Source: Pseudohongiella sp.
Lineage (GTDB): Bacteria > Pseudomonadota > Gammaproteobacteria > Pseudomonadales > Pseudohongiellaceae
Length of the DNA: 64,000 nucleotides
Reading direction: 5' to 3'
Assembly (NCBI RefSeq): GCF_011050365.1
Contig: NZ_DRFV01000012.1
Location: 124,001 to 188,000, forward strand
This document shows, piece by piece, positions 34,185-48,350 of this stretch (position 1 is its first letter; each line of letters starts with the position of its first letter). The translations under genes were made by a program, and so were the position numbers. Below the pieces are notes generated by a model that searched no databases, was not told the DNA's origin, and was given only the letters and a program-made list of their open reading frames with translations.

Positions 34185-35594
34185 ATGAAACGCTACGAGC
34201 AGCTCGCGCACGACATTGCCGAAATGATTAAAAGTGGCGTGCTGGTGCCGGGGGAGCGTGTACCTTCCGTGCGACACGCCAGCCGGACCTACGGCGTGAG
34301 CGCTGCCACGGTTTACCAGGCCTATTACCTGCTGGAGAATCGTGGATTGATTCGTTCACGACCGCGATCAGGGTATTTTGTCTGTAGCCAGCCTCGCCAG
34401 TCCCTGCCTTCCGTGCAGCGCCCGTCAGGGTCTGTCGCCTCCACTGTGGTGGACGTATCAGAGCTGGTATTCACCGTGCTGGGTTCGGTTCGTGATCCGG
34501 GTATTGTCCCCCTGGGGTCGGCGTTTCCCAGCCCGGCCCTGTTCCCGATGCAGCGACTCAGCAAATCCCTGACCAAGGCCACCCGGCAAATGGATCCTGA
34601 TGCCACGGTGGCCCACTTACCGGCCGGCAGCCTGGATCTGCGTCGGCAGATTGCACAACGTTATTCCATTGCCCGCACGCACGTGGACTTTGATGAACTG
34701 GTGGTCACCAGTGGCGCTCTGGAAGCGCTGAACCTTTGCCTTCAGGCGGTAACCGGGCCCGGTGATTACGTTGCGGTGGAGTCCCCGGCATTTTATGCCA
34801 GCCTGCAAGCACTTGAGCGGCTTAATCTCAAAGCAGTCGAGATACCCGTTGATCCGGACGGTGGTGCAGATCTGCAGGTCTTGCAGGAAGCGCTTGCCAG
34901 ACATCCCATCAAAGCCTGCTGGTTCATGACCAGTTTTCAGAATCCCACCGGTGCAAGTATGCCCGACGAGAAGAAGAGTGCACTGGTCGAGATTCTGACA
35001 AAAAACCAGGTGCCACTGATTGAGGATGACGTTTACAGTGAATTGTATTTTGGCAGCGAGCAACCCAGGCCTGCCAAGGCTTTTGATACTGACGGTTATG
35101 TGATGCATTGCGGTTCGTTCTCTAAAAACCTGGCACCGGGCTACCGCGTGGGTTGGGTTGCGGCAGGGCGTTATGCCCGGCAGGTAGAACGCTTGAGGTT
35201 GATGACAACACTGTCGGCGTCAACCCCGGCGCAGATTGCCATCGCCGACTATTTGCAGTTTGGTGGCTTCGATCGCCATTTGCGAAAGCTGCGCCACCAG
35301 CTGGAAGTGCGGCAGAATGTCATGCGGGTCGCAATCGACCAATATTTCCCTGATACCACCCGGGTCTCCCGGCCGGAGGGTGGTTATTTTCTGTGGCTTG
35401 AGCTGCCAACGGGCACGGACTCACTGGAATTCCTGAAGCGGGCGTTGGCGCAGAATATCAGTATTGCACCCGGCCCCATCTTTTCCGCCAAACGTGCTTT
35501 TGGCAATTGTATTCGGCTGAACTACGGGGCACCTGCCGAAGCCGCGTTGGTACCCGCGATTAAAGAACTGAGCCGTATTGCTCATTGCATCTGA
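34185..35594 (+). CDS. MocR/GntR family PLP-dependent regulator
   Basis: 469 aa. An N-terminal GntR winged helix (residues about 3-68, GERVPSVRHASRTYGVSAATVYQAYY) is fused to a class I aminotransferase fold with the PLP lysine at Lys314 in SFSKNLAPGYRVGW. MocR proteins use PLP or its derivatives as effector and usually control a neighbouring gene. The neighbours here are recJ upstream and a redoxin 138 nt downstream on the same strand, so the target is not evident. Confidence 0.93.
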   Translation: MKRYEQLAHDIAEMIKSGVLVPGERVPSVRHASRTYGVSAATVYQAYYLLENRGLIRSRPRSGYFVCSQPRQSLPSVQRPSGSVASTVVDVSELVFTVLGSVRDPGIVPLGSAFPSPALFPMQRLSKSLTKATRQMDPDATVAHLPAGSLDLRRQIAQRYSIARTHVDFDELVVTSGALEALNLCLQAVTGPGDYVAVESPAFYASLQALERLNLKAVEIPVDPDGGADLQVLQEALARHPIKACWFMTSFQNPTGASMPDEKKSALVEILTKNQVPLIEDDVYSELYFGSEQPRPAKAFDTDGYVMHCGSFSKNLAPGYRVGWVAAGRYARQVERLRLMTTLSASTPAQIAIADYLQFGGFDRHLRKLRHQLEVRQNVMRVAIDQYFPDTTRVSRPEGGYFLWLELPTGTDSLEFLKRALAQNISIAPGPIFSAKRAFGNCIRLNYGAPAEAALVPAIKELSRIAHCI

Positions 35595-35732
35595 TCTGGT
35601 TTTTTTTCTCGTATCTGCATCTGTTTTGTTTTTCTCGCGCCAGTTACGATGTTGCTGTCAGTTTCTTTATCAGTTTCATTAATAGGGGCCGGCACAAGCT
35701 GGTTTATCCGAAAACAAACAGAGGATTTGCTC

Positions 35733-44423: not shown

Positions 44424-44639
44424 ATGTTGATCTTGACTCGCCGAATCGGTGAAACCCTGATGGTTGGTGATGACGTCACCGTGACCGTCCTCGGTGTAAA
44501 AGGTAACCAGGTACGAATTGGCGTCAACGCGCCCAAAGATGTTGCAGTGCATCGAGAGGAAATCTACCAGCGCATCCAGAAAGAAAAGGGTGCCGTCAGC
44601 GAAAATGCCGATGAAGGTGGTACTCCGGACAACGAATAA
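44424..44639 (+). CDS. csrA: carbon storage regulator CsrA
   Basis: 71 aa, beginning [20 protein letters not shown], the invariant RNA-binding N-terminus, with the [19 protein letters not shown] core. It binds GGA motifs in mRNA leaders to repress or stabilise messages. Its own ribosome site AAGGAG at 44411-44416 contains GGA, and another GGA lies just upstream, so autoregulation is plausible. The 273-nt gap to lysC shows no clear promoter or other gene. Confidence 0.98.
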
Positions 44640-44712: not shown

Positions 44713-44741
44713 CTGCCATTTCTCCTGAGTTGTGCTATGAT
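44713..44741 (+). promoter_or_regulatory. promoter of tRNA-Ser
   Basis: CTGCCA and TATGAT separated by 17 nt, followed by a GC-rich discriminator GCGCCC; the tRNA starts 14 nt after the -10. A GC discriminator is typical of stable-RNA promoters under stringent control. Confidence 0.7.
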
Positions 44742-44754
44742 TGCGCCCGATTTT

Positions 44755-44845
44755 GGAGAGATGGCCGAGTGGCTGAAGGCGCGCCCCTGCTAAGGGCGTA
44801 TAGGTTAATCCCCTATCGAGGGTTCGAATCCCTCTCTCTCCGCCA
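44755..44845 (+). tRNA. tRNA-Ser (anticodon GCU)
   Basis: 91 nt including an encoded CCA. The acceptor stem GGAGAGA pairs with TCTCTCC (44835-44841), with discriminator G and CCA at 44843-44845. The anticodon stem CGCCC/GGGCG encloses the loop CTGCTAA with GCT at 44789-44791. A long variable arm (class II) and the T arm GAGGG-TTCGAAT-CCCTC are present. It reads AGC and AGU. Following csrA is the common gammaproteobacterial position. Confidence 0.98.
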
Positions 44846-45020
44846 TATTAAATATCCCCGTCCGTGTACGTGCCGCTAGCGACATAAATATAGCCAGCGG
44901 CAAACACGGAGAGGGAAGCGAACCCGACAGAGGGTCGACTGATTGCAACGCAATCAGAGACGAGCGCGATAGCGCGAAGCCCGGAAGGGGCGAAACAGCG
45001 CAAAGCTGTTTTGCTCAATC
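44831..45020 (+). repeat. 190-bp tRNA-terminal repeat, copy 1
   Basis: First of two tandem 190-bp units. It starts in the tRNA-Ser T arm/acceptor and ends just before a second copy of the 19-nt tRNA 3' end AATCCCTCTCTCTCCGCCA (44827-44845 and 45017-45035). Inside are a two-part stem (TCCGTGT 44861-44867 with ACACGGA 44904-44910; TGCCGCT 44871-44877 with AGCGGCA 44896-44902), TGATTGC-AAC-GCAATCA, GCGC-GATA-GCGC, and AAACAGC-GCAAA-GCTGTTTT (44993-45012), which resembles a weak terminator. Confidence 0.95.
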
Positions 45021-45210
45021 CCTCTCTCTCCGCCATATTAAATATCCCCGTCCGTTTACGTGCCGCTAGCGACATAAATATAGCCAGCGGCAAACACGGA
45101 GAGGGAAGCGAACCCGACAGAGGGTCGACTGATTGCAACGCAATCAGAGACGAGCGCGATAGCGCGAAGCCCGGCAGGGGCGAAACAGCGCAAAGCTGTT
45201 TTGCTCAATC
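45021..45210 (+). repeat. 190-bp tRNA-terminal repeat, copy 2
   Basis: Identical to copy 1 except for two substitutions (G to T at 45056, A to C at 45175). The first change breaks one pair of the outer stem. It is followed by a third, partial 18-nt copy of the tRNA end (45207-45224, lacking the final A), after which similarity stops. Confidence 0.95.
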
Positions 45211-45294
45211 CCTCTCTCTCCGCCTGCCCGTATACGTGAATCGGAGCATGACAATGCAAGCGCCGCCAGTTCGCACCGGCGGCGGTATCACAAA

Positions 45295-47985: not shown

Positions 47986-48350
47986 TCTTTCGGACTCCTG
48001 TTGTTAACAAATCACATTGTTGTTTTTGTGTGAGTTGCATCAGGTGTTTACCTGAGCGGGAAGTCATTAAGCCGGAGCAATCCGAAAATATCACCTATCT
48101 GAAGTAACGTTTGTGTAACGATAAGCGGCGCGGCACACGTTGCCAGCTTTCCAAATCGATGTTTTTGACTGATATGTACAGGAAGATATTGTCATTTCGC
48201 CGAAGTGGTGAAGCGAGAAAGGGTGAAGCGGGAAAGTGGGGGGCGCGAGAAATGGGTTAGGCAAGAGTACCCAAGACTGGATTATCTTTAGTGCGGCGCA
48301 CTGGAAATGAAATGGACGGCGGGTGATGCAGAGGGTGTGTCAGCAAGGAA

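Follow-up and report, generated by a model that had tools for sequence, protein, structure and literature searches.

A TLR/RtT repeat array behind tRNA-Ser(GCU) of Pseudohongiella that may release structured RNAs from the tRNA transcript

The DNA analyzed here (the window, 64,000 nt of a Pseudohongiella sp. contig) carries a tRNA-Ser(GCU) gene followed by two tandem repeats of 190 nt each (44827-45016 and 45017-45206), which are 99% alike. The repeat search also located the 18-nt sequence AATCCCTCTCTCTCCGCC in three exact copies, starting at positions 44827, 45017, and 45207, while Tandem Repeats Finder reported a single array at 44827-45224 with a period of 190, 2.1 copies, and a score of 782. 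Both results bear out the preliminary description of this DNA, which had proposed tandem 190-bp units duplicating the tRNA-Ser 3′ end. A register in which each unit consists of a spacer, a core, and a copy of the tRNA end is more natural and was preferred, because the tRNA end closes, rather than opens, each unit. In this register unit 1 starts at the nucleotide following the tRNA gene, in the same orientation (Table 1). The last 18–19 bp of the units match the 3′ end of tRNA-Ser(GCU) at 19 of 19 positions in unit 1 and at 18 of 19 in unit 2. The two units differ in the spacer (44866 G versus 45056 T), in the loop of hairpin P5 (44985 A versus 45175 C), and in the last base of CCA (45035 A versus 45225 T), and none of these differences breaks a predicted base pair. 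Other short tandem repeats of the window are located at 35589-35637 and 48207-48236 (26 bp × 2 and 15 bp × 2). The csrA gene (44424-44639) lies directly upstream of the tRNA-Ser gene and the array, which is probably a coincidence of the gene order alaS-lysC-csrA-tRNA-Ser.

Table 1. Positions of the tRNA-Ser(GCU) gene, its promoter-like site, and the parts of the two repeat units (window coordinates)
Feature	Position	Strand	Basis
Extended -10 type promoter CTGCCA-17-TATGAT, for tRNA-Ser transcript	44713..44741	+	consensus scan
tRNA-Ser(GCU), whose 3′ end (T-arm, acceptor, CCA) serves as template F	44755..44845	+	ARAGORN; Rfam tRNA 58.8 bits
Unit 1 of the tRNA-linked repeat, made up of a spacer, the inverted copy R, and the split forward copy F′	44846..45035	+	R1 133 bits at 44907-45032
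Unit 1 spacer, imperfect hairpin, without intrinsic terminator	44846..44906	+	fold, terminator scan
Unit 1 R, inverted tRNA T-arm/acceptor end (CGGAGAGGGAAGCGAACCC); first part is P1 5′ strand	44907..44925	+	alignment to reverse complement of own tRNA end; fold
Unit 1, first half of F′, repeating the 5′ side of the T-arm directly (GAGGGTCGA); forms helix P2 with R	44930..44938	+	sequence; fold
Unit 1 four-hairpin module P3-P6 in T loop of F′	44939..45016	+	folds, covariation
Unit 1 module hairpins	P3 44939-44957, P4 44964-44975, P5 44980-44989, P6 44990-45014	+	folds
Unit 1 F′ second half, 19-nt copy of tRNA 3′ end including CCA; P1 3′ strand	45017..45035	+	repeat search
tRNA-linked repeat unit 2; ends CCT, not CCA	45036..45225	+	R1 132.7 bits at 45097-45222
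Unit 2 parts	R 45097-45115; F′ 45120-45128 and 45207-45225; module 45129-45206	+	

A search for the unit downstream of other tRNA-Ser genes, suggested in the preliminary description, found similar units in the same genome behind both tRNA-Ser(GGA) and tRNA-Ser(UGA), where the units bear the 3′ end of their own tRNA. Judging by gene length and anticodon, these two and tRNA-Ser(GCU) appear to be the sole tRNA-Ser genes among the 36 tRNAs of the genome. Because unit 1 folds with −84.4 kcal/mol (z = −7.0 against shuffled sequences), and because like units follow both other tRNA-Ser genes, the array is not a product of chance. At least one unit was present in all 15 Pseudohongiella genomes searched, although its presence at the tRNA-Ser(GCU) locus was patchy.

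Tandem repeats linked to tRNA genes have been known since 1978. A covariance model (R1) derived from 18 Pseudohongiella units matched the tyrT-tyrV repeats of E. coli K-12 four times, with E values from 8e-7 to 2e-6. Conversely, the Rfam RtT model (RF00391) matched sister units over the full length of the model, with a best score of 43.9 bits (E 3.5e-7), while the window unit itself scored 15.1 bits (E 4.8), below the gathering score of 45 bits. The parallel to the E. coli tyrT operon and its rtT RNA, which had been drawn from the layout, is hence better described as homology than as mere likeness. The array has two copies, and its genome has further loci, in keeping with the one to five copies per locus and several loci that are the norm for tRNA-linked repeats (TLRs). 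On these grounds the window array is classed as a member of the TLR/RtT kind.

Matches to Rfam RtT were obtained in 81 of 369 sampled Gammaproteobacteria, of which 23 exceeded the cut-off, while among 14 control genomes only E. coli had a match. The loci read from these matches lie directly behind tRNA-Tyr, tRNA-Gln, or tRNA-Ser, and most of them end with the 3′ end of that tRNA. Across many Gammaproteobacteria, units of this sort also occur behind tRNAs for Phe, Tyr, Gln, Met, Arg, and Val, and behind others. A comparison of the unit with phage and plasmid collections gave no match.

The anatomy of the repeats was compared in 140 collected units with 124 distinct sequences. An upstream tRNA, found within 400 nt for 96 of the 140, was specific for Phe, Ser, Tyr, Gln, Met, Arg, Val, Leu, Pro, or Lys. 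The order of the locus is the tRNA end (F), a spacer, an inverted copy of the tRNA end (R), and a second forward copy (F′), which is interrupted in the T loop, at TTCGA^ATCC, by the four-hairpin module. With the compared region picked independently of the tRNA, R scored 26.0 against its own tRNA and 18.3 against permuted ones (permutation maximum 20.2; 0 of 10,000 permutations reached the own score), and F′ scored 25.2 versus 14.1. In R the TTCG of the T loop is often replaced by TGAG, and a subset of Phe and Lys loci has an R that continues through CCA into a terminator to form a single long near-perfect palindrome. There are one to four copies per locus, and at some loci the module is doubled or tripled within one T loop. 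At one locus (L049, G010:C2) the TLR is followed by about three copies of an approximately 31-bp repeat, AATCAATCCCTCTCTCGTCAA..CCTGCACTAACGCC, which reuses the tRNA-end copy. What is new relative to earlier knowledge is this common anatomy of a tRNA end, an inverted end, and a split forward end with a module in its T loop.

Six helices recur among the units, P1 and P2 formed by R with F′ and P3-P6 within the module, and most free folds match the constrained ones. In the 18 units 97.5% of the cells were paired, and doubly changed cells numbered 96 versus 30 in shuffles. In 109 distinct units, in an alignment that was fitted to the R1 model and therefore leans to its structure, 93.6% were paired, with double changes at 32 of 35 pairs and 727 doubly changed cells versus 169 in shuffles, while slid controls were at most 47% paired. 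The stem pairing is hence conserved in relatives. A free MAFFT alignment (A1) still yielded P1 with four doubly changed pairs, but RNAalifold applied to this mixed alignment recovered only P1, P2, and P5, because P3, P4, and P6 are misaligned there. Overall, the six-helix fold covaries strongly.

Within P3-P6 there were 25 G-T versus 4 A-C combinations (p = 1e-4), and therefore it is the tRNA-sense strand that folds, either as RNA or as single-stranded DNA. A double-stranded DNA cruciform is disfavored by the same excess. The G-U share is low, 1.2% within P3-P6, and 4.7% in minimum free energy folds of the units, whereas the tRNAs reach 7.5% and RNase P RNA 11.5%. Triloops of the cGNAg type made up 83 of 179 hairpin triloops versus 1.2 of 54 in shuffles, and in cGNNAg loops the ratio of purines to pyrimidines at the third base was 16:16, an even balance that favors neither DNA nor RNA. 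Loops of the cGNAg type are unusually stable in DNA.

Some of these features could also arise without any benefit to the cell, if template switching copied tRNA ends in both directions and the same process kept the hairpins perfect. Such a selfish or neutral repeat would account for the tracking of each host tRNA by R and F′, for the near-perfect palindromes running through CCA and the terminator at some Phe and Lys loci, for the copy numbers of one to four and the duplicated modules, as well as for double changes with few G-U intermediates and for patchy presence. However, the architecture is kept across families of Gammaproteobacteria, and so large an excess of G-T over A-C is not expected from mutation that treats both strands alike. 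A selfish or neutral origin is considered quite unlikely.

The transcription signals around the array were also compared. The promoter-like site lies 14 nt before tRNA-Ser(GCU), and the consensus scan found one such site versus 0.5 expected in shuffles, which is weak when taken alone. The terminator scan found no intrinsic terminator on the + strand of the array region, and none between the tRNA and the units. The T4 tail previously ascribed to the last stem is not a terminator, as it lies inside that stem (AACAGC..GCTGTTTT). In five Pseudohongiella genomes that lack a TLR at the GCU locus a terminator is located at +20 to +78 after tRNA-Ser(GCU), while a TLR-bearing genome (L044) has a similar terminator at +581, behind the units. 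Given the promoter before the tRNA and the absence of an intervening terminator in the window, the best reading is co-transcription of the array with the tRNA and release of structured RNA, and we lean, with modest confidence, toward a two-copy TLR/RtT array that is read with tRNA-Ser and releases structured RNAs ending in CCA. The array would be transcribed from the tRNA promoter, and in each unit R would pair with F′ as P1 and P2, with the module projecting as hairpins P3-P6. This pairing would hold R away from the real tRNA and lend each unit a tRNA-like CCA end, at which tRNA 3′-processing enzymes could cut, so that tRNA-sized structured RNAs would be freed. The released RNA might be regulatory, for example by binding a protein. 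The conservation of base pairs is shown here, and the release of structured RNA from the tRNA transcript, which had already been suggested, is inferred.

This reading is supported by the homology, the matching of units to their own tRNAs, the pair conservation, the sense-strand bias, and the lack of a terminator in the window. Against it are the low G-U share, the patchy presence at the GCU locus, the score of the window unit under the Rfam cut-off, the lean of the alignment toward R1, and the terminators at other loci. A terminator between the tRNA and the unit was found at 11/11 loci for Phe, 5/5 for Met, 3/3 for Gln(CTG), 2/2 for Val, 1/1 for Lys, 1/1 for Pro, and 3/4 for Arg, which means that co-transcription is not general, unless it occurs by read-through. 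Read-through was reported for rrnB T1, and read-through of a terminator is the published route for the E. coli repeats rrA, rrB, and rrF (PMC8144298). Hence, the terminators before the units weaken the RNA reading, which could still hold via read-through.

At many loci an intrinsic terminator precedes the core, which agrees with a role at the level of DNA, in which the sense strand would fold as single-stranded DNA and R and F′ would rebuild the double-stranded tRNA 3′ end, the usual target of integrases. Next to tRNA genes, the units would then offer spare attachment sites or decoys, or would be substrates of recombination. The abundance of cGNAg loops, the low G-U share, and the position of units in relatives at island junctions with tRNA-Phe halves, or past an island at tRNA-Ser, also fit this role, although cGNAg triloops occur in RNA too. 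In a genus belonging to the same family, TLR units behind tRNA-Phe are spaced 3-9 kb apart, and several junctions there carry AGCACACTT-type repeats, after which comes the part of tRNA-Phe that begins with the anticodon loop. Some of these junctions proceed to a terminator and a full unit, others straight to the module in the T loop, which could be explained by direct insertion or by deletion between two GGTTCGA copies. In two Pseudohongiella genomes (L053, G003:C8; L057, G013:C10) foreign-looking DNA leads up to a bare tRNA-Ser 3′ end with the TLR behind it, as though an island had entered between the tRNA and the unit. On the other hand, the window array has no integrase within 20 kb and no cargo between its copies, and RNA products were reported in other species (PMC8144298, PMC4986893). 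A DNA-level role of this kind is considered fairly unlikely. A broader proposal, which we regard as improbable, is that TLRs are a general tRNA-parasitic structure, in which a mobile four-hairpin module sits in a copied T loop and the inverted copy rebuilds the tRNA 3′ duplex from one strand, for site-specific recombination of DNA at tRNA genes, in a manner resembling to some extent that of a folded integron site.

Further observations were made at related loci. At the tRNA-Phe loci of relatives from genus g4 (L143-L151), TLR units are separated by cassettes of about 3-9 kb. The junctions have AGCACACTTnTTAGCACACTC and then tRNA-Phe starting at its anticodon loop, and GGGGTCAGAGTAAAAATACAGTAG is present in inverted form at some cassette borders; no integrase was recognized by eye among the ORFs listed for L143, L144, and L146. 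A weak match to the REP_ORF2-G2P replication protein (PF23343, E 1.2e-5, below cut-off) was obtained at L041 (G000:C2:15000-19500), upstream of a tRNA-Phe 3′-end fragment that is accompanied by a terminator and by a TLR with two modules; this is possibly an inovirus-like element at tRNA-Phe. A mobile repeat of the IS200/REP type, mobilized as single-stranded DNA by a Y1 transposase, was rejected, as no such transposase was found in the same genome and no association was seen (present in 32/74 TLR-positive versus 87/219 TLR-negative genomes).

Insertion by tyrosine integrases characteristically leaves direct repeats of a tRNA 3′ end, and islands use these tRNA genes in relatives, which is consistent with the alternative, raised earlier, that the array is a plain att-like scar, a remnant of integrated elements, with one duplication of the tRNA end for each. 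However, the 170 bp between the copies form a conserved, covarying structure of the RtT type, which is found after many kinds of tRNA without an integrase, and neither the inverted tRNA end nor the conserved hairpins are created by simple integration. No integrase was found among the ORFs flanking the array, and the nearest, a tyrosine integrase 338 aa long behind another tRNA gene, is about 20 kb downstream, just past the window (G000:C12:188681-189715). For the window array the scar explanation is weak, and we consider it very improbable.

The RNA reading gains from what is known of related repeats. E. coli has 22 tRNA-linked repeats at ten loci, with the last 18–19 bp identical to the end of the upstream gene, and RNA from such units was reported there (PMC8144298) and in A. 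pleuropneumoniae (PMC4986893), while in Thioalkalivibrio RtT RNA was higher at 10 °C (PMC8092127). A stringent-response or starvation role of rtT was later retracted, and TLRs are described as having no known function (PMC8144298). The present analysis adds the TLR anatomy, the matching to host tRNAs over ten amino-acid types, and the division of loci by a terminator before the unit, and what was a vague “repeat after a tRNA” now yields predictions of RNA release, anti-tRNA pairing, and recombination that can be tested.

The closest known system is that of the E. coli tyrT-tyrV repeats and rtT (RF00391), which share with the window array the location directly after a tRNA, the tandem arrangement, the unit-terminal 18–19 bp copy of the tRNA 3′ end, the inverted T-arm copy, and hairpins P2-P6, and which are found by R1. 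The window family differs in following tRNA-Ser(GCU/GGA/UGA) and in the flavor of its hairpins (P4 GCGC, P6 AACAGC). The E. coli repeats rrA, rrB, and rrF belong to the TLR family and carry an 18-bp copy of the end of the upstream gene, but they are located after 5S rRNA between two terminators (PMC8144298), while the window array follows a tRNA without a terminator. These three RNAs bind CsrA and Hfq in vitro, while CsrA binding is not predicted for the 19 tRNA-linked TLRs of E. coli (PMC8144298). Arrc20 and Arrc21 of Actinobacillus pleuropneumoniae, of the RtT family, are also RtT-type RNAs adjoining tRNA genes, and RNA was detected there, but the genes are those of Asn and Lys tRNAs and the RNAs were described as upstream of the tRNA (PMC4986893). 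Finally, the attL and attR sites of tRNA-targeting islands have in common with the array the direct repeat of the tRNA 3′ end, while the array, which lacks both integrase and cargo, possesses a conserved internal fold and an inverted copy of the tRNA end.
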